Below, one piece after another: positions 33,204 through 42,292 of a DNA stretch of 64,000 nucleotides (its first letter is position 1; every line of letters begins with the position of its first letter). The DNA comes from Natronomonas gomsonensis (GTDB taxonomy: Archaea > Halobacteriota > Halobacteria > Halobacteriales > Haloarculaceae): contig NZ_CP101323.1 in NCBI RefSeq assembly GCF_024300825.1, positions 2,232,001 through 2,296,000 of the forward strand, written 5' to 3'. The notes beneath the pieces are model-generated. The model made no database searches, had not been told where the DNA came from, and saw only the letters and a program-made list of their open reading frames with translations. A program made the position numbers and the translations under genes.

Positions 33204-34097
33204 TCAGTCCAAGAGGTACGTCAACAGCCCCTTCTGGGCGTGCAGTCGGTTCTCGGCTTGGTCCCAGACGATGGCCCGGTCGCTCTCCATGACGGCGTCG
33301 GTAATCTCCTCGCCGCGGTGGGCGGGCAGACAGTGCATCACTTCCTGGTCGTCGAGTAACGCCTCGTTGACCTGAAAGCCCGCCCGCGAGAACGCTTCGA
33401 GTTTCTCGGCGCGTTCGGACTCCTCGCCCATGCTCACCCACACGTCGGTGTAGACGATGTCGGAACCGTCGACGGCCGCTTGTGGGTCCGCGACGATTTC
33501 GGGGGCGCTGCCGAGTTCCTCGGCGCGTTCCAACACGGCGTCGTCGACACCGTATCCCTCCGGCGTCGCGACGACCAAATCGAGGCCGACGATGGCCGCG
33601 CCCAACACGAACGACTGACAGACGTTGTTGCCGTCGCCGACCCACGCGACTCGGGCGTCGAAACCGTCGAAGCGCTCCCGAATCGTCAGCAAGTCGGCGA
33701 GCGTCTGACAGGGGTGGGCGTCGTCCGTGAGGCCGTTGACGACGGGTACCTCGGCGTACTCGCCCAACTCGACCACGTCGGCGTGGTCGAAGACCCGGGC
33801 CATGATGACATCGACGTACCGCGACAGCGCACGTGCGGTGTCCTTGACAGGTTCGCCGTGGCCCAGGTGGATGTCGTCGGGACCGAGGAAGATGGCGTGG
33901 CCGCCGAGTTGTGTCGCACCCGTCTCGAAGGACACCCGAGTTCGGGTCGAGGGCTTCTCGAATATCATGCCGAGCGTTTGGCCGTCCATGCCGTCTGCGG
34001 TCTTTCCGCGGGCGGTCCGCTCTTTGAGGTCGGTCGCCCGCGTCAACACGTCGTCTATCTCCTCGCGCGTGAGGTCGTCGATGTTCAGGAAGTTCAT
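33204..34097 (-). CDS. argF: Ornithine carbamoyltransferase
   Basis: 297 residues. The carbamoyl-phosphate site STRTRVSF, the HPCQTLADL motif and the ornithine-side HCLPAHRG motif (EVMHCLPAHRG) are all present. Converts ornithine plus carbamoyl phosphate to citrulline. Last gene of the lysW-argF operon; its ATG overlaps the argE stop by four bases. Confidence 0.96.
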   Translation of the reverse strand: MNFLNIDDLTREEIDDVLTRATDLKERTARGKTADGMDGQTLGMIFEKPSTRTRVSFETGATQLGGHAIFLGPDDIHLGHGEPVKDTARALSRYVDVIMARVFDHADVVELGEYAEVPVVNGLTDDAHPCQTLADLLTIRERFDGFDARVAWVGDGNNVCQSFVLGAAIVGLDLVVATPEGYGVDDAVLERAEELGSAPEIVADPQAAVDGSDIVYTDVWVSMGEESERAEKLEAFSRAGFQVNEALLDDQEVMHCLPAHRGEEITDAVMESDRAIVWDQAENRLHAQKGLLTYLLD

Positions 34098-35143
34098 TGC
34101 AGGTCCTCCGCGACGGCCTCCAGTATCGCCGTCGCACGGTCGAGTTCGCGTAACTCGAGATGTTCGTCGGGCGCGTGGTCGAGGTCCGAATCGCCGGGAC
34201 CGTACGTCGCCATCGGGCAGTCCCACGCCCCGGCGAAGATGTTCATGTCGGCGGTGCCGGTCTTCCGGAGCAGGCGGGGGTCGCCGCCGGCATCGCGGAT
34301 GGCGACGCGGAAGGCCCGACCCACTTCGGTCCGGGGACTCTGCATCGTCGGTTCGACCGCGTCCTTCCAGTTGACGGTGCCGGCGCCCGACAGTTCGGCG
34401 TCGGCCAACTCCCGGACCTCGTCGGTCGAGTACGACGGCGGGACGCGCAGTTGGGCGTCCAGCGTCGTCTCGACGGCCAGTCCGTCCTGGCTGGTGCCGC
34501 CTTCGATTTCCACCGGCTTGGGCGTCACGCGCTCGAAGACGGGGTCGTACTCGTCATCGCCGCCGAAGATGTCCTCGACGGCCGACCACCACGCGATGGC
34601 GTCCTGAATCGCGTTGTTCTCCGGGCGGGAGGTGTGGCCCGATTCGGAGGTGGCGACGTAGGTGCCCTGCAGGATGCCGCGATACCCCAGCGTGATGCCG
34701 TCCCAACCGGAGGGTTCGCCGTTGACGACCGCCTCGGGCGCCTCGCGCTCGGCGATGAGATGGCGGGCGCCGCGGGAGTCGACTTCCTCGCCGACGACGC
34801 CGACGAAGGAGACGCCGGTCCGCACCGCCGCAACCGCGAGCGCGACGAGCGGCCCCTTCGCGTCGACGGAGCCGCGACCCCACAACTCGGGGCCGTTCTC
34901 GCCGTCCTCGACACGGACGGGAATGTCGCCCGGTACCGTGTCGATGTGGGACGTATAGAGGACGCTGTCGTCGGCCGGCGCGCGAACGTTGCCGACCTCG
35001 TCGATGAACACGTCTCGGCCGTGGTCTTCGAAGAACGCCGCGAGCGCCTCGGCACACTCCGCTTCCTCGGGCGTCGGCGAGGGGATGGAGACGAGCGTCT
35101 CCAAGAGGTCGCGTGCCTCCTCGTCGGGAGTGGCGTCGCTCAT
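34094..35143 (-). CDS. argE: [LysW]-ornithine/lysine hydrolase (M20 peptidase family)
   Basis: 349 residues. M20 metallopeptidase motifs: YTSHIDTVP (metal His/Asp), GRGSVDAKGPLVAL (bridging Asp) and VVGEEVDSRGARH (Glu-Glu catalytic pair). The gene order shows that it releases ornithine (or lysine) from the LysW carrier protein rather than from an N-acetyl group. Overlaps argD by four bases. ArgE/LysK of haloarchaea may be bifunctional; no alpha-aminoadipate-specific genes are in the window. Confidence 0.92.
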   Translation of the reverse strand: MSDATPDEEARDLLETLVSIPSPTPEEAECAEALAAFFEDHGRDVFIDEVGNVRAPADDSVLYTSHIDTVPGDIPVRVEDGENGPELWGRGSVDAKGPLVALAVAAVRTGVSFVGVVGEEVDSRGARHLIAEREAPEAVVNGEPSGWDGITLGYRGILQGTYVATSESGHTSRPENNAIQDAIAWWSAVEDIFGGDDEYDPVFERVTPKPVEIEGGTSQDGLAVETTLDAQLRVPPSYSTDEVRELADAELSGAGTVNWKDAVEPTMQSPRTEVGRAFRVAIRDAGGDPRLLRKTGTADMNIFAGAWDCPMATYGPGDSDLDHAPDEHLELRELDRATAILEAVAEDLQ

Positions 35144-36267
35144 GCGATGATGTCCTCCAGCGCCTCGACCACCCTGTCGGCGTGTTCGCGTTCGATGGTC
35201 AGCGGCGGCAGGAGACGGACGACGCTGCGGCCGGCCGGCAACGCGAGGATGCTGTGGTCCAGCGCGAGGTCGCGCAGGATGGGGTTGGCCCCCCGTTTCA
35301 CCTCGACGCCGACCATCAGGCCGTTGCCGCGGACCTCCCGAACCTCCTCACCGATTGCGGCGTCGAGTTCGTCGGTGAGGTACGAACCGATTTCGGCGGC
35401 GTGAGCGGGGATGTCCTCGCCTTCGATGACGTCGAGGGTGGCACCCGCCGCCGCCGACACCACCGGGCCGCCGGAGAACGTCGATCCGTGGTTGCCGCAG
35501 TCCTCGGCAATCCAGTCGCGGACGAGCGTCGCGCCGATGGGGAGACCGCTGCCGAGGCCTTTCGCCGTCGTCACCACGTCGGGGACGACGCCGTGGTCGT
35601 CGGCGGCCCACAGCGACCCGGTCCGGCCGAGACCGGTCTGAATCTCGTCGAGAATCATCGCCGCGCCGGCCGCCTCGGTTTCCGCTCGAATCGTCTCCAA
35701 GTACGTCGTCGAGGCGGGGTTGATTCCGCCTTCGCCCTGCAGCGGTTCGACGATGACCGCCGCGGTTTCCTCGTCGATGGCCTCGGCCATTGCCTCGCCG
35801 TCCCCGTAGGGGACGAACTCGAAGTCGCCGGCCAGCGGGCCGAAGCCGTCTTTGTACTCGTCTTTCCACGTCGCGGCGAGCGAGCCCATCGTCCGGCCGT
35901 GAAAGCCCTGCATCGTCGCGATGATTTTCGAGCGACCGGTGGCGTGTCGGGAAAACTTCAGTGCGGCCTCGTTGGCCTCGGTCCCCGAGTTACAGAGCCA
36001 CACGTTGTCGATGTCGCCCGGCGCGATCTCCGCGAGCCGTTCGTATAGCGCCGTTCGCGGGGCGTTGGGATAGGAAGCCTGTACGTACATCAGCCGCTCT
36101 ATCTGGTCGGTCGCGGCCTCGACGACGTCCGGGTGGCAGTGGCCGACCGGCGTACAGGCGTAACTCGCGCCGAAGTCCAGGTACTCGGTTCCGTTCGTGT
36201 CGTAGAGGTGGACCCCCTCGCCACGGTCGATTTCGATGGGTTTCTCGGAGAAGACGAATCCGCTCAT
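35140..36267 (-). CDS. argD: [LysW]-aminoadipate/glutamate semialdehyde aminotransferase
   Basis: 375 residues, class III PLP-dependent aminotransferase. The Schiff-base lysine lies in TTAKGLGSGLPIGAT; the substrate and cofactor segments CNSGTEANEAALKF, GFHGRTMGSLAAT and LDEIQTGLGRTG are complete. It transaminates the LysW-linked semialdehyde to LysW-ornithine. A 15-bp gap separates it from argB upstream; argE starts within its stop. Confidence 0.95.
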   Translation of the reverse strand: MSGFVFSEKPIEIDRGEGVHLYDTNGTEYLDFGASYACTPVGHCHPDVVEAATDQIERLMYVQASYPNAPRTALYERLAEIAPGDIDNVWLCNSGTEANEAALKFSRHATGRSKIIATMQGFHGRTMGSLAATWKDEYKDGFGPLAGDFEFVPYGDGEAMAEAIDEETAAVIVEPLQGEGGINPASTTYLETIRAETEAAGAAMILDEIQTGLGRTGSLWAADDHGVVPDVVTTAKGLGSGLPIGATLVRDWIAEDCGNHGSTFSGGPVVSAAAGATLDVIEGEDIPAHAAEIGSYLTDELDAAIGEEVREVRGNGLMVGVEVKRGANPILRDLALDHSILALPAGRSVVRLLPPLTIEREHADRVVEALEDIIA

Positions 36268-36282
36268 AGTTCTAATCAGGTG

Positions 36283-37104
36283 TCATTCCAGCGCGCTCGG
36301 ATAGACGTGCGTGCCGCCCCCCGAAAGCGCCGACTGGATGGGGTTGTCGGCGTTGGCGCTGGCGACGACGACTTCGCTCGCGCCGCCCTCCAACGCCTCC
36401 GTCGCCGCCATGACCTTCCGGCCCATGAACCCCTCGGCGGCGGCTTTCAGTTCCTCGTACTCGTCGGGCGTCTCGACGGACTCGATGAGCGTCGAGGCGT
36501 CCTCGGGATCGCGGTACACGCCCTCCACGTCGGTCAGCGAGACGAGCGTCCCGCCGAGGTCAGCGGCGACCGCAGCAGAGGCGCGGTCGGCGTCGGTGTT
36601 GACCGCGACGCCGTCGTCGGCTAACATCGGCGGCGAAGCCACCGGCGTGTAGCCGTCCGACAGAAGCGTCTCCAAGAGGTCACCGTTGACTTCCTCGATT
36701 TTCCCGGAGTGGTCGCCGCGACGAATCTTCTTCTTGCCGTCCTCGACGACTCGGACGGCTGACTTCCGGGGACCGTACAACAGTTTGCCGTCGACTCCGG
36801 AGAGGCCGACCGCGTCGACGCCGTGGTTCTGCAGGCCGGTGACGAGGTCGGTGTTGACGAGACCAGACATCGCCATCTTGAACACGTCCATCGTCTCCTC
36901 GTCGGTGAAGCGGCCGACGACGCCCGACGGGGTTTCGACGTACTCGGGGTCGATGCCCATCTTTTCGAGGGCGTCGTCGACGGCCGTCGACCCGCCGTGG
37001 ACGACCGCCACGTCAGTGCCGTCTTCGCGGACGGCGGCGATGTCGGCGAGTGCACCCTCCGGTTCGACGGCACGGGCGCCCCCGATTTTGACGACGACGG
37101 TCAT
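36283..37104 (-). CDS. argB: [LysW]-glutamate/aminoadipate kinase
   Basis: 273 residues, amino-acid kinase fold. The N-terminal MTVVVKIGGARAVEPEG contains the phosphate-binding Lys/Gly-Gly, with a second Gly-rich VVHGGSTAV loop; later elements NTDADRASAAVAADLGG and LTDVEGVYRDPED bind nucleotide. It phosphorylates the gamma-carboxyl of the LysW-bound glutamate. Start overlaps the argC stop by four bases. Confidence 0.94.
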   Translation of the reverse strand: MTVVVKIGGARAVEPEGALADIAAVREDGTDVAVVHGGSTAVDDALEKMGIDPEYVETPSGVVGRFTDEETMDVFKMAMSGLVNTDLVTGLQNHGVDAVGLSGVDGKLLYGPRKSAVRVVEDGKKKIRRGDHSGKIEEVNGDLLETLLSDGYTPVASPPMLADDGVAVNTDADRASAAVAADLGGTLVSLTDVEGVYRDPEDASTLIESVETPDEYEELKAAAEGFMGRKVMAATEALEGGASEVVVASANADNPIQSALSGGGTHVYPSALE

Positions 37105-38138
37105 GGCGCTCCCACGGGGTGGAACCCGGTGAACTCCAGTCCGGCCGTCTCATCGAGTCCGAGGGCGATGTTGGCCGCGTGGACCGCCTGTCCCGCGGAG
37201 CCTTTCATCATGTTGTCGATGGCCGAGAAGACGACGAGGCGTTTGTTCCGGGGGTCGACCTCGAAGCCGACCTCCGCGAAGTTCGAGCCCGCAACCGCCT
37301 TGGGTTCGGGGTATCGGTACACTCCGGAGCCGCCGGCGACCAGCCGGACGAACGGTTCGTCCTCGTAACTACCTCGGTAGGCTTGCCAAAGGTCGCCTTT
37401 CGAGACCGGCCCGTTGGGGTAGACGTGACAGGTCGCGGAGGCACCGCGAGTCATGTCGACCGCGTGGGCGGTAAAGGAGACCTGTGTGCCGAGGTACTCC
37501 TCGATTTCGGCCTCGTGTCGGTGGCCCGTCGGAGCGTAGGGCCGAACGACGCCGGAGCGTTCGGCATGCGAGGATGCCTCCCCGCCGCCGGCACCACCTT
37601 CCGAGGAGCCGACCTTCACGTCGACGACGACCTGCTCGTCACCCGAAAGGATGTCCGCGTCGAAAAGCGGCTTGAGGCCGAGAATTGCGGCCGTCGCGTT
37701 ACAGCCACCGGAGGCGATGAGGTCCGCGCCGGCGAGGTTCTCGCGGTTGAGTTCCGGCAGCGCGTATTCGGACTCCGAAAGCAACTCTGGGCGGTCGTGG
37801 CCGTCGTACCACTCGTCGTACTGTTCCTCGCGGTTCAGTCGGAAGTCCGCACTCAAGTCGACGACGGTGTCGGCGGCCTCACGAAAGGCGTCGATGTGGT
37901 CCATCGTGACGCCGTGGGGCGTACACGCGAAGAGCACGTCGACAGAGTCGAGGTCCTCAGGGCTGGAAAACCGGAGACTCATCCCCCGGAGGTTCGGGTG
38001 GACCGAACCGACGGTCTTGTTCTCGTAACTCCGAGAGGTGGCTTGAGCCACCTCGAATTCGGGGTGGCCGTCGAGGAGTCGAAGGAGTTCGCCGCCGGTG
38101 AAGCCACTGGCCCCAACGACCGAGGCGGTGTAGCTCAT
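37101..38138 (-). CDS. argC: [LysW]-glutamyl/aminoadipyl phosphate reductase
   Basis: 345 residues. Rossmann motif VVGASGFTGGELLRLL at the N-terminus and the catalytic cysteine in ASGGCNATAAILGL identify the semialdehyde dehydrogenase family. An acid-poor insertion with GSSEGGAGGGEASSHAERSG is typical of the LysY/ArgC branch. It reduces the LysW-bound acyl phosphate to the semialdehyde with NADPH. Overlaps argX by four bases. Confidence 0.94.
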   Translation of the reverse strand: MSYTASVVGASGFTGGELLRLLDGHPEFEVAQATSRSYENKTVGSVHPNLRGMSLRFSSPEDLDSVDVLFACTPHGVTMDHIDAFREAADTVVDLSADFRLNREEQYDEWYDGHDRPELLSESEYALPELNRENLAGADLIASGGCNATAAILGLKPLFDADILSGDEQVVVDVKVGSSEGGAGGGEASSHAERSGVVRPYAPTGHRHEAEIEEYLGTQVSFTAHAVDMTRGASATCHVYPNGPVSKGDLWQAYRGSYEDEPFVRLVAGGSGVYRYPEPKAVAGSNFAEVGFEVDPRNKRLVVFSAIDNMMKGSAGQAVHAANIALGLDETAGLEFTGFHPVGAP

Positions 38139-38998
38139 GCGGTCACCTCGACGCCCTGTACCTTCGCCTCCAGCCAGTCGACGACCGTTCCGGGCACGTC
38201 CACGTCGCTGACCTCGTTGAGCGCCTTGAACTCGACGGTGTGGTTGACCTCGTGGACGGTGTAGGAGTCACCGGTCTCCATGAGGTCGACGCCAAGCAAG
38301 CCGCCGCCGACGGCATCCGAGGCGCGTTCGACGAGGTCCGCCATCTCCTCGGTGACCTCGATGGGTTCGGTCTCGGCACCGCGGGCGGCGTTGGTGAGCC
38401 AGTGGTCCGAGGAGCGAGCCATCGCCGCGACGGGTTCGCCGTCGGTGGCGACGACGCGGATGTCACGGCCCGGCTTCTCGACGAACTCCTGGATGTAGAA
38501 CACCTTGTGCTCGTAGTGGCCGAGTGTCTCTTTGTGTTCGAGGATGGCCTCGGCGGCGTCGCGGGAGTCGATTTTCGCCATCAGCCGACCCCACGATCCG
38601 ACGACGGGTTTCAGCACGCAGGGATAGCCGAAGTGCTCGATTGACTCCATTGCGGACTCCTTGGTGAACGCCACCTCGGTGGCGGGCGTCGGCACGTCCG
38701 CGTTCGCGAGGACGAGGCTGTTCCGTGCTTTGTCGGCGCAGATAGCCGCCGTCTCCGGTTCGTTGACGACCGGAATCCCGTAGGAATCGACGAATCGGGT
38801 GATGTAGCGCGACCGGCTGGTCGCGAGACAGCGGTCGACCACGATGTCGACATCGTCGAAGACCTCCGGAACGTCGTGGACGCTGAAACGCTCCTTTCGG
38901 ACGTCGATTTTCGTCACGTCGTGGCCACGGTCGCGAAGCTCGCTGAGCAGGAGCTTCTCGTCGCGACGGATACGCGAGTAGAGGATACCTACGTTCAT
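38135..38998 (-). CDS. argX: Glutamate--LysW ligase ArgX (ATP-grasp)
   Basis: 287 residues, ATP-grasp fold of the RimK/LysX group (MNVGILYSRIRRDEKLLLSE; YPCVLKPVVGSWGRLMAKI; VFYIQEFVEKPGRDIRVVAT; LLGVDLMETGDSYTVHEVNH). It joins the amino group of glutamate (or aminoadipate) to the C-terminal Glu of LysW, protecting it. Known substrate-specificity residues of ArgX versus LysX cannot be judged by eye. 51 bp downstream of lysW. Confidence 0.93.
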   Translation of the reverse strand: MNVGILYSRIRRDEKLLLSELRDRGHDVTKIDVRKERFSVHDVPEVFDDVDIVVDRCLATSRSRYITRFVDSYGIPVVNEPETAAICADKARNSLVLANADVPTPATEVAFTKESAMESIEHFGYPCVLKPVVGSWGRLMAKIDSRDAAEAILEHKETLGHYEHKVFYIQEFVEKPGRDIRVVATDGEPVAAMARSSDHWLTNAARGAETEPIEVTEEMADLVERASDAVGGGLLGVDLMETGDSYTVHEVNHTVEFKALNEVSDVDVPGTVVDWLEAKVQGVEVTA

Positions 38999-39049
38999 TT
39001 GTGGGTTCCCTCGGTGTTCGCGCGGCTGGCTACGCCGACGTACATCGCC

Positions 39050-39214
39050 TTACTCCCCCCAGTCCTCTTCCAGTTCGGGTGCCGTCTCCAGCTCGACGGG
39101 GTCGTCACCGACCACTTCGAGTTCGGCACCGCAGGTCGCACAGTCGACGATTTCTCCGACTTCGAGGTCGTCGTGCAGGTCCAGTTCGGCCCCGCACTCG
39201 GGACATTCTGCCAT
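39050..39214 (-). CDS. lysW: Amino-group carrier protein LysW
   Basis: 54 residues. The zinc ribbon has two CxxC pairs (AECPECGAEL and VDCATCGAEL), and the protein ends EEDWGE. The C-terminal Glu is the residue to which ArgX attaches glutamate, and the EDWGE ending is the LysW hallmark. The gene starts the lysW-argX-argC-argB-argD-argE-argF operon, with a leaderless promoter (TTTAAG 28-33 nt before ATG). Acidic surface residues bind the operon's enzymes. Confidence 0.95.
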   Translation of the reverse strand: MAECPECGAELDLHDDLEVGEIVDCATCGAELEVVGDDPVELETAPELEEDWGE

Positions 39215-39241
39215 TGTGCCCGATACTCGTCGCTATATTCA

Positions 39242-39248
39242 CTTAAAG
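39242..39248 (-). promoter_or_regulatory. TATA box of the lysW-argF operon
   Basis: On the minus strand CTTTAAG lies 28-34 nt before the lysW ATG, fitting a leaderless transcript. A GCATA/TATGC hairpin (39279-39296) sits a further 30 nt upstream. Confidence 0.6.
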
Positions 39249-39355
39249 GCTTCGAACTTGTCAGTATAGTATAACAACGCATACCGGCCGCTATGCGGGA
39301 AAATGAGGCGTTTGAAGCGTTCGAGTGACGTTGCGTGTCAGTTTTGTGGTAGTAT

Positions 39356-39407: not shown

Positions 39408-40862
39408 TCAGACACGGCGGTTCACCTCCTCGCGGCGCCATTCGGCTGCCTCGGCCACCGCTTCCCGGCGGGCCTCCAGCGCCTCGTCGTCGACCTCGAC
39501 GGCCGTCACCGCCCGGTCAAGCGCGCCGGATACCGCTTCGGGTGCCGGGCCGCCGAAGGAGTCACGAGAGACGACGCTTTCCTCGGGGTCGAGTGCGGCC
39601 TCGACCGCATCACGGTCGGCGCGCGCCTCAAGCGGTTCGCCGAGCACTTCCTGTGCGGCAGCATCGAGTGCCTCGTAATCGGACCCGGATTCGGCGGCGA
39701 GCGCCACCATCTCGTGGGCGGTCCGGAACGGTACGCCGGCCATCGCCAGCAGGTCGGCGACGCCGGTGGCCGTCGAAAATCCCTCCCCGGCGGCCGTCGC
39801 CAGCGTCTCTGCGGGCCACTCGGCGGTCGCAACCGCGCCGGCGGCCACCTCGGTTGCCTCCCTAACGGCGTCGACGGCATCGAAGGCGTGGTTGTGCGCC
39901 CGCTGGAGGTCTCGGTTGTACGCACGCGGCAACCCCTTCAGTATCGTCAGCAGGGCGTTCAGCCCCGCCGAGGCGTCGCCGGACGCTCCCCGAACCAACT
40001 CCATCGTATCCGGGTTCTTCTTTTGGGGCATAATCGAGGACGTCGAGGAGTAGTCGTCCGAGAGCTCGACGAACCCCTTGTTGGAGAACACGACGAGGTC
40101 CTCGGCGAGGCCGGACAGCGTCGTCGACAGCGCCGCGACGGCCGCCGTCGTCTCCACGAGGAAGTCCCGCGCGGAAGCGGCGTCCATCGAGTTTTCGAGG
40201 ACCGACTCGAAGCCGAGCAACTCGGCGACCCGCTCGCGGTCGATATCGAAGGGCGTCCCCGCGAAGGCAGCCGCCCCAAGCGGCGAGCGGTCGATGCGGT
40301 CGTAGGCGTCGAGCAGTCGCTCGGTGTCGCGGGCCAGCGCCGATTCGTAGGACAGCAGGTAGTGACCGACCGTCGTCGGTTGGGCCGGTTGGAGATGCGT
40401 AAAGCCGGGCATCACCGTCTCGGTGTGTTCGGTGGCGAGTTCGGTCAACACCTCGCGGGTCTCGATGACCGTCTTGACGGTCGCCAGCACGTCCTCGCGC
40501 AGGCGATAGCGGATGCAGGTCGCCACTTCGTCGTTTCGCGAGCGGGCGGTGTGCATCCGGCCGCCGCGCTCGCCGACGTGCTCGATGACGGCCGTCTCGA
40601 TTGCGGCGTGGACGTCCTCGCCGTCGGGGAGGGCGTCGTGGCCCGCCGCCTCCACGTCGTCGAGCGCTTCGAGGATGGCCGCGGCGTCGTCGCCGTCGAT
40701 GATACCCTGTTCGTCGAGCATCACGACGTGGGCGCGGTCGACGGCGAGGTCCGCCTCGAAGATGCGTTCGTCGGCCGCGAGACTCGAGAGGAACCCGCGG
40801 GCGGGGCCGCCGCTGAAACGCTCGCGGCGAACGACATCGTCGCTACCTTCCTCTTCGCTCAT
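39408..40862 (-). CDS. argH: Argininosuccinate lyase
   Basis: 484 residues. The fumarase/ASL signature SSIMPQKKNPD and the flanking TRSRNDEVAT and HLQPAQPTTVGHYL segments are intact. It cleaves argininosuccinate to arginine and fumarate. Start lies four bases after the argG stop, so argG and argH form one transcript, separate from lysW-argF. Confidence 0.96.
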   Translation of the reverse strand: MSEEEGSDDVVRRERFSGGPARGFLSSLAADERIFEADLAVDRAHVVMLDEQGIIDGDDAAAILEALDDVEAAGHDALPDGEDVHAAIETAVIEHVGERGGRMHTARSRNDEVATCIRYRLREDVLATVKTVIETREVLTELATEHTETVMPGFTHLQPAQPTTVGHYLLSYESALARDTERLLDAYDRIDRSPLGAAAFAGTPFDIDRERVAELLGFESVLENSMDAASARDFLVETTAAVAALSTTLSGLAEDLVVFSNKGFVELSDDYSSTSSIMPQKKNPDTMELVRGASGDASAGLNALLTILKGLPRAYNRDLQRAHNHAFDAVDAVREATEVAAGAVATAEWPAETLATAAGEGFSTATGVADLLAMAGVPFRTAHEMVALAAESGSDYEALDAAAQEVLGEPLEARADRDAVEAALDPEESVVSRDSFGGPAPEAVSGALDRAVTAVEVDDEALEARREAVAEAAEWRREEVNRRV

Positions 40863-40866
40863 GTGG

Positions 40867-42069
40867 CTATTCCTCTTTTTGACTGTCGATGACGCGGTTT
40901 GCCAGACGCTCCTGGAAGCCGTGGTACTTCGCGACGCCGGTGGCGTCGTCCTGTTCGATGCCGCCGATGACGTCCTCGGTGTTGAACGAGGCCGCTTCCG
41001 CGGAGTAGACGGCGAACTGCGAGGACCGGCCGACCGGACGGGCCTGACCGCCTTCGAGGCGAATCGTCACGCTGCCGGTGACGCGGGTCTGGGTCTCCTC
41101 GATGAAGCCCTCCAGTGCACCGACCAGCGGCGCGTTCACGAGGCCCTGATACCCCTTCTCGGACCACTCGTGGTCGATTTGCTTCTTGAAGGAGCGTTCT
41201 TCCTTCGTGAGGACGAGGTCCTCCAGCGCCTGGTGGGCGTTGAGCAGCACCGTCGCCGCAGGGTGTTCGTAGTTCTCGCGGACCTTCAGGCCGAGCATGC
41301 GGTCCTCCATGATGTCGGAGCGGCCGACGCCGTAGTCGCCTGCGAGGTCGTTGAGCGTCTGGGTGAGTTCGACCGGTTCCATCGCCTCGCCGTCGAGGCT
41401 GACGGGATAGCCGTTCTCGAAGCCGATTTCGAGTTCGCGCGTCTCGCCCGTGGGCGCGGTCGTCCACTCGTAGATGTCCTCCGGCGGGACGTAGCTCGGC
41501 TCTTCGAGTTCCGACCCCTCGATGGAGCGACTCCAGAGGTTCGTGTCGATGCTGTATTTGCCCTCGTCGCCGCCCTCGACGGGCAGGTCGCGTTCGGCGG
41601 CGTACTCCTGTTCGAACTCCCGTGTCAGGCCGAGTTCACGGACCGGCGCGATGACCTCCATGTCGGAGTCACGCCAGACGGCCTCGAAGCGGAGTTGGTC
41701 GTTGCCCTTCCCGGTACAGCCGTGTGCGAGGCCGGTACAGCCCTGCTCTTCGGCGACTTCGAGAATCGCCGTCGCGATGACCGGACGGGCGAGTGCGGTG
41801 CCGAGCGGGTAGCCTTGGTAGGAGGCGTTGGCGCGGACGGCGTCGAAACAGAGGTCGGCGAACTCGTCTTTCGCGTCGACGACGTAGTGTTCGAGGTTCA
41901 GCGCTTCGGCGGTCTCTTCGGCCTCGGCGAACTCGGCTTCGGGTTGGCCGACGTCGACGGTGACGCCGATGACCTCGTCGTAGCCGTATTCTTCCTTGAG
42001 CAGCGGGACACAGACTGTCGTGTCGAGCCCACCGGAGAAGGCGAGCGCGACGCGTTCGTTGTCGGACAT
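40867..42069 (-). CDS. argG: Argininosuccinate synthase
   Basis: 400 residues. The N-terminal PP-loop VALAFSGGLDTTVCVPLL binds ATP, and the citrulline/aspartate-binding segments (GCTGKGNDQLRFE, LARPVIATAI, DIMEDRMLG) are conserved. It joins citrulline and aspartate. The ATG lies 88 nt after a short upstream ORF and about 190 nt after a strong TATA box at 42264-42270, so its mRNA probably has a structured leader. Confidence 0.96.
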   Translation of the reverse strand: MSDNERVALAFSGGLDTTVCVPLLKEEYGYDEVIGVTVDVGQPEAEFAEAEETAEALNLEHYVVDAKDEFADLCFDAVRANASYQGYPLGTALARPVIATAILEVAEEQGCTGLAHGCTGKGNDQLRFEAVWRDSDMEVIAPVRELGLTREFEQEYAAERDLPVEGGDEGKYSIDTNLWSRSIEGSELEEPSYVPPEDIYEWTTAPTGETRELEIGFENGYPVSLDGEAMEPVELTQTLNDLAGDYGVGRSDIMEDRMLGLKVRENYEHPAATVLLNAHQALEDLVLTKEERSFKKQIDHEWSEKGYQGLVNAPLVGALEGFIEETQTRVTGSVTIRLEGGQARPVGRSSQFAVYSAEAASFNTEDVIGGIEQDDATGVAKYHGFQERLANRVIDSQKEE

Positions 42070-42092: not shown

Positions 42093-42109
42093 ACCGTCAA
42101 CCGGACGGT
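42093..42109 (-). repeat. Hairpin between the short leader ORF and argG
   Basis: ACCGTC (42093-42098) and GACGGT (42104-42109) pair around a 5-nt loop, 24-40 nt before the argG ATG. In the + direction it is followed by TTTT; in the argG direction it lies in the 5' leader. Confidence 0.5.
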
Positions 42110-42157
42110 TTTCGTTGAAAGCGAGGCGAGCGCGACTGGAGTGAGTACTATTCGGGC

Positions 42158-42238
42158 CTAACGGCCCGGTCGCGGTCGCCGAAGAATGGAGTACCCACCG
42201 GTGAGCACGGACGCGCTGAAGCGGTGGGTCTGCGTCAT
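42158..42238 (-). CDS. Putative arginine-rich leader peptide of argG
   Basis: A 26-codon ORF whose ATG lies 25-31 nt after the TATA box TTTAATA, exactly leaderless spacing. It starts MTQTHRF and ends RRPRPGR; five of 26 residues are Arg, four of them in the last seven, encoded CGG, CGA, CGA and CGT. An 8-bp hairpin (42193-42200 with 42222-42229) lies within the ORF and another (GGGCC/GGCCC, 42154-42167) overlaps its stop. argG starts 88 nt later. The layout resembles bacterial amino-acid attenuators. GC-rich DNA yields Arg codons by chance, so coding is unproven. Confidence 0.45.
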   Translation of the reverse strand: MTQTHRFSASVLTGGYSILRRPRPGR

Positions 42239-42263
42239 GTATCTCGTTCTATTCTCAGAGCGG

Positions 42264-42270
42264 TATTAAA
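42264..42270 (-). promoter_or_regulatory. TATA box upstream of the argG leader
   Basis: TTTAATA on the minus strand, with a purine-rich BRE-like AAGCG just before it. It predicts initiation at the ATG of the short ORF at 42238 and a leader of about 170 nt before argG. No gene on the plus strand could use the reverse reading. Confidence 0.65.
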
Positions 42271-42276
42271 CGCTTG

Positions 42277-42292
42277 TGGAACGGCCGTTCCA
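42277..42292. promoter_or_regulatory. 16-bp palindromic operator candidate
   Basis: TGGAACGGCCGTTCCA is perfectly self-complementary and ends six bases upstream of the argG-leader TATA box, the position where archaeal activators or repressors bind. The bound regulator, if any, is unknown; an Lrp- or arginine-responsive factor is one guess. Confidence 0.5.

Follow-up and report, generated by a model that had tools for sequence, protein, structure and literature searches.

Attenuation by leader peptides, a textbook mechanism of bacteria, relies on tight coupling between translation and transcription. In the his, trp, leu, pheA and pheST attenuators of Enterobacteria, a short promoter-proximal ORF bearing a run of cognate codons precedes biosynthesis or tRNA-synthetase genes, hairpins overlap these codons and the body of the peptide is not conserved. 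The leader described here, which precedes argG in Natronomonas gomsonensis and other haloarchaea, resembles them in all these traits. It differs from them in having an archaeal promoter, a leaderless start and no Shine-Dalgarno sequence, in lacking a U-tract terminator and a demonstrated antiterminator, in an arginine signal with strong use of CGA, and in the presence of a second promoter in several lineages. The fungal arginine attenuator peptide (the CPA1/arg-2 uORF) is likewise an arginine-related uORF located before an arginine biosynthesis gene. It is a conserved nascent peptide that senses free arginine, whereas the body of the haloarchaeal peptide varies and the Arg codons alone are kept. 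Amino-acid feedback in archaea is also represented by the TrpY-type control of trp genes, which differs from the present case in being exerted by a DNA-binding repressor.

The window, i.e., the whole stretch of N. gomsonensis DNA that was analysed, is 64,000 nucleotides long, and the features of the arginine locus within it are listed in Table 1. The distance from the first T of TTTAATA to the ATG at 42238 is 32 nt, corresponding to a leaderless spacing, and four Arg codons (CGG, CGA, CGA, and CGT) are found among the last seven of the 26-codon leader ORF. In the structure predicted for the window and for the genus, the run of Arg codons forms the 5' arm of stem 2, which encloses the stop-codon hairpin. 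The leader RNA extends to 42070, and argG starts at 42069. The short T-run might act as a weak termination site, an inference that remains no more than a possibility. An earlier note, made from the sequence alone, had proposed an arginine attenuation leader at this position. Its TATA box, its leaderless-spaced 26-codon ORF and its four Arg in the last seven codons held and were correctly located, as did its hairpin inside the ORF and its second one over the stop. The note had missed the pairing of the Arg codons with a downstream arm, the third hairpin and the continuation of the leader RNA as far as argG. In addition, a perfect 16-bp palindrome, TGGAACGGCCGTTCCA, is present at about 42277-42292, immediately 5' of the TATA box of the arg promoter; it was discarded, as most Natronomonas do not conserve it.

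Table 1. Features of the arginine leader and of the arginine genes in the N. gomsonensis window.
Feature	Positions	Strand	Remarks
TATA box TTTAATA	42264-42270	minus	Only promoter seen upstream of argG
Arg leader peptide ORF	42158-42238	minus	26 codons, leaderless start; translation MTQTHRFSASVLTGGYSILRRPRPGR, then stop
Control codons CGG CGA CCG CGA CCG GGC CGT	42161-42181	minus	R R P R P G R
Hairpin 1, CCCACCG/CGGTGGG	42194-42228	minus	Inside leader ORF
Stop-codon hairpin (hairpin 2), CGGGCC-GTTA-GGCCCG	42153-42168	minus	CGGGCCGTTAGGCCCG; overlaps leader stop
Composite stem 2	42126-42179	minus	GCGACCGCGAC (42179-42169) pairs with GTCGCGCTCGC (42136-42126)
Short T-run GCTTTCAACG	42113-42122	minus	Just 3' of stem 2
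Hairpin 3, ACCGTCCGGTTGACGGT	42093-42109	minus	23 nt upstream of argG
argG, argininosuccinate synthase	40867-42069	minus	NCBIfam equivalog match; first gene after leader
argH, argininosuccinate lyase	39408-40862	minus	NCBIfam match
Remaining arginine cluster: lysW/argW (39050-39214), argX, argC, argB, argD, argE, argF	33204-39214	minus	

Within the cluster, reading of the sequence revealed TTTAAG, a promoter-like motif, some 33 nt upstream of where lysW starts (39214-39250, minus strand). It is possible that lysW-argXCBDEF is also transcribed separately from this internal leaderless promoter. Therefore, by position, only argG and argH rely on the promoter of the leader alone.

It must be noted that a single genome provides evidence for the Arg leader that is barely above chance. 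A TATA-plus-start rule, applied to the window and to the other loci, yielded 88 short ORFs, of which 15 (about 1 in 6) carried four or more Arg within the final 12 residues; in the window alone, two of ten such ORFs were equally Arg-rich, one of them being the Arg leader itself. The earlier note had rightly warned that GC-rich frames often contain Arg by chance, a caution that weighs on the single-genome case. It is because of its conservation that the Arg leader stands far above chance.

The Arg leader precedes argG in all 17 Natronomonas genomes and, in the class Halobacteria, at 78 of the 79 argG loci for which upstream sequence was available, a count for which mis-called starts were corrected by eye. 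The sole exception is a Haloarcula locus in which argG lies directly behind another gene. In 30 further argG loci of the phylum, the leader was present at the seven haloarchaeal ones (this genome counted) and was not found at the 23 belonging to non-haloarchaeal archaea. Arg-run ORFs with TATA spacing were identified before argG in Halorubrum, Haloferax, Halobellus, Halogranum, Halogeometricum, Halobaculum, Natrialba, Natronococcus, Halorientalis, Halosimplex, Halobacterium, and others. The distance from TATA to start ranged from 26 to 35 nt in 89 leaders, which include near-duplicate loci of the same species, and was mostly 31-32 nt. The length of the leader varied from 23 to 53 codons and its location was always upstream of argG. 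When the region from TATA to argG was aligned for the 17 Natronomonas genomes, the TATA box, the start, the Arg codons, the GGGCC hairpin, the GTCGCG arm and the CCGTCCGG hairpin were invariant or nearly so. The ORF and its conservation are thus shown. The earlier note had named the absence of a conserved frame among relatives as what would refute a leader peptide; this test was passed class-wide, the Arg codons being retained and the other residues free to vary.

The codons of the leader have a marked preference. CGA accounted for 452 of the 740 Arg codons of the 89 leaders (61%). At these loci, the argG genes themselves use CGA for only 19 of 1553 Arg codons (1.2%), and eight arg genes of this genome together use it for 18 of 162 (11%). 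In general, starvation should be felt most sharply at codons that minor tRNAs decode. The CGA counts in the three frames over the leaders were 452, 52, and 86, with the leader frame the highest. In an unbiased frame test, the Arg-rich ORF was not chosen beforehand; whichever ATG (or GTG) came first behind the TATA set the frame, and that frame was the richest in CGA in 73 of 79 leaders. In the listed exceptions, the leader frame continues to hold the Arg run, and one of them is due to an extra ATG just upstream. On the argG tree, the ORF underwent at least 39 changes in length, with the Arg run remaining in the frame of the start codon. As a control, the distance from the leader stop to argG was unphased (28/30/21). 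Nor does the GGGCC hairpin keep a fixed phase with the start codon; only the Arg run does so. The frame and the enrichment in Arg and CGA are direct observations.

On the argG tree, the Arg codons stayed fixed as Arg and changed mainly at the third position, i.e., synonymously, while the remaining leader codons varied at all three positions. Except for Arg and a few Gly, Leu, and Pro positions, the body of the peptide is not conserved even inside the genus, and in Natronomonas C-terminal frame shifts are tolerated, the peptide ending in PGR or in AGRPE before the stop. Named Natronomonas loci have 98-99% of the ArgG residues in common with the window, in agreement with its origin in this genus. 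A codon-position test over the whole ORF gave no third-position excess (59/58/50); therefore, no selection is claimed on the peptide itself, but only on its Arg codons. Kept Arg codons and a free body are what a codon sensor of arginyl-tRNA would need, and not what a functional peptide would, an inference that we consider strong.

The RNA of the leader, from its expected start to argG, folded at -67.7 kcal/mol, compared with -48.3 +/- 3.9 kcal/mol for shuffled sequences (z = -5.0; 0 of 200 shuffles). Within the genus, three of the seven pairs of hairpin 1 and two of the six pairs of hairpin 3 have changed on both sides. In relatives, the ACCGTC/GACGGT of hairpin 3 is replaced by ACCGCC/GGCGGT. 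The four-helix structure pairs in 98.1% of the cells, and the both-side changes exceeded those of all 500 shuffles (0/500). The pairing as a prediction and the covariation of these two hairpins are thus shown. The stop-codon hairpin is invariant in the 17 Natronomonas genomes and was found in nearly all lineages. Because stem 2 does not vary in the genus, covariation there is neutral, neither for nor against it; in Haloglomus-like genomes its 3' arm differs in sequence with complementarity kept, and in Halorubrum the Arg run pairs about as strongly. When all lineages are taken together, complementarity between the Arg run and downstream sequence was only weakly above that of shuffles (mean z -0.6), and the claim of complementarity is restricted to Natronomonas, its relatives and Halorubrum.

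With respect to how transcription might end in this leader, a U-tract terminator was looked for and none is present. A TTTC motif lies 20-75 nt past the leader stop in 43 of 79 leaders, with 27 +/- 3.6 expected, which is a weak enrichment, and G is scarce in the 22 nt that follow the stop-codon hairpin (12% vs. 26% further on). In H. volcanii, T-stretches are the best transcription enders, and a hairpin motif still gave 59% termination in vivo (PMC7237163). FttA favours U-rich RNA and has been proposed as a competitor of the ribosome on the elongation complex (PMC11616081). A trp-type alternative pairing, between the 3' arm of stem 2 and CAACGAYGAC before hairpin 3, was also considered and rejected, its duplex energy being no better than that of shuffled sequences. 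In consequence, of the claim in the earlier note, the part concerning an arginine-responsive leader peptide is well supported by conservation, in the absence of arginine-response data, while attenuation in the strict sense of terminator versus antiterminator is not shown, given that there is no U-tract terminator and that a trp-style pairing is unsupported.

Leaders of the same kind were found before genes of two other amino acids. Leaderless ORFs, mostly ending in GFGFFFA(R/A) and the stop, precede pheS at 30 of 43 haloarchaeal loci, with 95 TTC and 17 TTT as their Phe codons, and one of them is present in this genome, near 2,494,000, outside the window. In E. coli the Phe leader also sits before pheS. 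The Phe leader is absent from some Natronomonas that have another gene upstream of pheS. With or without it, a conserved CGAGTCGGAACCGCTAAC occurs some 30-50 nt before pheS, perhaps as an atypical proximal promoter. For tryptophan, an ORF with W-x-W, usually encoded as CGC TGG CGC TGG, precedes the second TrpRS, often plasmid-borne in haloarchaea, at 12 of 13 loci; in many of them WRW (TGG CGC TGG) lies between the inverted arms TCCGCTCCC and GGGAGCGGA. Differential RNA-seq start sites in H. volcanii had previously revealed 16 uORFs in long 5'UTRs, including, with leaderless starts, one of 26 aa before pheS and one of 23 aa before a plasmid-borne trpS (PMC4983044, Table 2). The relevant section of that paper does not remark on the codons of these two uORFs, does not propose attenuation and does not list argG. 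The tie between the H. volcanii HVO_A0127 uORF and the Trp leaders rests on Haloferax relatives, the Trp leaders of H. mediterranei and H. larsenii being 23 aa long with WRW.

Other genes served as controls. A TATA-spaced cognate leader was found at none of 20 argS and none of 19 pheA loci, and no TATA-spaced leader with cognate codons was found at trpC and hisG (both by reading) or at the main trpS. As an observation apart, Natronomonas trpC has a leaderless promoter with a conserved GTTARTGTACAG and no leader peptide, and a conserved GTTARTGTACAGTA, reminiscent of a TrpY-type operator, lies directly before its leaderless start; the motif upstream of trpC is one that we take to be linked to TrpY. 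Given three cognate pairings (Arg, Phe, and Trp), coincidence is very unlikely, which supports the codon-sensing reading of the Arg case.

The Arg leader is likely to be a ribosome-stalling control of argGH by the supply of arginyl-tRNA, in which translation of the ORF, stalling, sensing of charged tRNA and the step controlled are all inferred. Three of the features expected of an attenuator are present, namely a short promoter-proximal ORF before cognate genes, cognate codons conserved in frame, and a predicted structure over the control codons. In this view, the mRNA from the arg promoter would have its 5' end at or near the start codon of the 26-codon peptide, and a ribosome would initiate at once on this leaderless message and reach, at the end of the peptide, the run of mostly rare CGA codons. 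With plentiful arginyl-tRNA, it would clear the Arg run, finish at the stop codon and leave, so that the freed Arg-codon RNA could pair with its downstream partner and enclose the stop-codon hairpin. Stem 2 thus formed would prevent most expression of argG and argH, either by transcription ending near the short T-run or, together with hairpin 3, by a block of argG translation. When arginyl-tRNA is short, a ribosome stalled on the CGA codons would cover the 5' arm of stem 2 and argGH would be expressed. That a stalled ribosome disables stem 2 is plausible and unproven, and translational control through hairpin 3 is just as possible.

Besides the missing U-tract terminator, the unsupported antiterminator pairing, the invariance of stem 2 in the genus and the weak complementarity over all lineages, two further points speak against this proposal. 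The argG gene is missing from the H. volcanii list of uORFs (PMC4983044); it must be considered that this list was obtained from cells in complex medium and comprises only peptides of low pI, and that the pI of the Arg leader peptide is 12. The other point is that, in many Haloferacales and Natrialbales, argG has a second TATA some 31 nt upstream, directly in front of the gene, which would bypass the leader. Therefore, argG can also be made there from a leaderless transcript, and we infer that in lineages with two promoters the leader would supply a regulated share on top of the output of the second one. In Natronomonas, no second promoter is visible between the leader and argG. In the Haloferacales other than Halorubrum, a conserved CTATAGGCATCTCT followed by a T-rich stretch was also observed between the leader and argG.

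Among other explanations, a structured cis-regulatory RNA (a riboswitch or a protein site) in which the ORF is incidental would account for the strong folding, the covarying hairpins 1 and 3 and the nearly invariant GGGCC hairpin. However, it does not account for the concentration of CGA in the frame of the start codon over many ORF lengths, for an Arg residue retained through synonymous change, for the retained leaderless spacing between TATA and start, or for Phe and Trp leaders bearing their own cognate codons; in addition, the window has no match to any Rfam family. We consider this alternative unlikely. Still less probable is a nascent-peptide arrest like that of the fungal arginine attenuator peptide, in which arginine and the peptide would stall the ribosome at the stop and shut off argG. 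It is favoured by a short ORF before an arginine gene and by a stop codon within a hairpin, but a residue-specific arrest peptide should be conserved, and here the body is not, even in the genus, with the C-terminal frame shifts described above being tolerated.

About as remote as the latter is the possibility that the ORF, driven by a promoter of its own, encodes a small Arg-rich protein that acts in trans and adjoins argG only by position. The second leaderless argG promoter of Haloferacales and Natrialbales is in its favour, and such a role was suggested for similar uORFs by the authors of PMC4983044. Against it, the non-Arg residues are free, the ORF, whatever its length within the range given above, is always found before argG, and Natronomonas has no other visible promoter for this gene. 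Lastly, the ORF might be Arg-rich by chance, as part of an intergenic region of high GC content. This view gains some support from such ORFs not being rare in one genome (15/88), but it is refuted by promoter spacing, frame and CGA run all being conserved across the class, and can be practically ruled out.

Control by ribosome stalling on Arg codons remains the preferred reading. No earlier description of archaeal leader peptides, attenuation or arginine uORFs was found in the open-access literature searched, subscription papers being outside its scope. The type of mechanism is known from bacteria; its archaeal, leaderless and CGA-based form, and the Phe and Trp counterparts, appear to be new. 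The preference for CGA offers a sharp prediction of which arginine tRNA would be the sensor. In a bolder reading, which we also hold to be likely, haloarchaea would have a class-wide system in which leaderless mRNAs carry codon-based leader peptides. Its cognate members would number at least three (Arg/argGH, Phe/pheS, and Trp/second TrpRS), and it would constitute an archaeal amino-acid attenuation without Shine-Dalgarno initiation and probably without terminators of the bacterial type.
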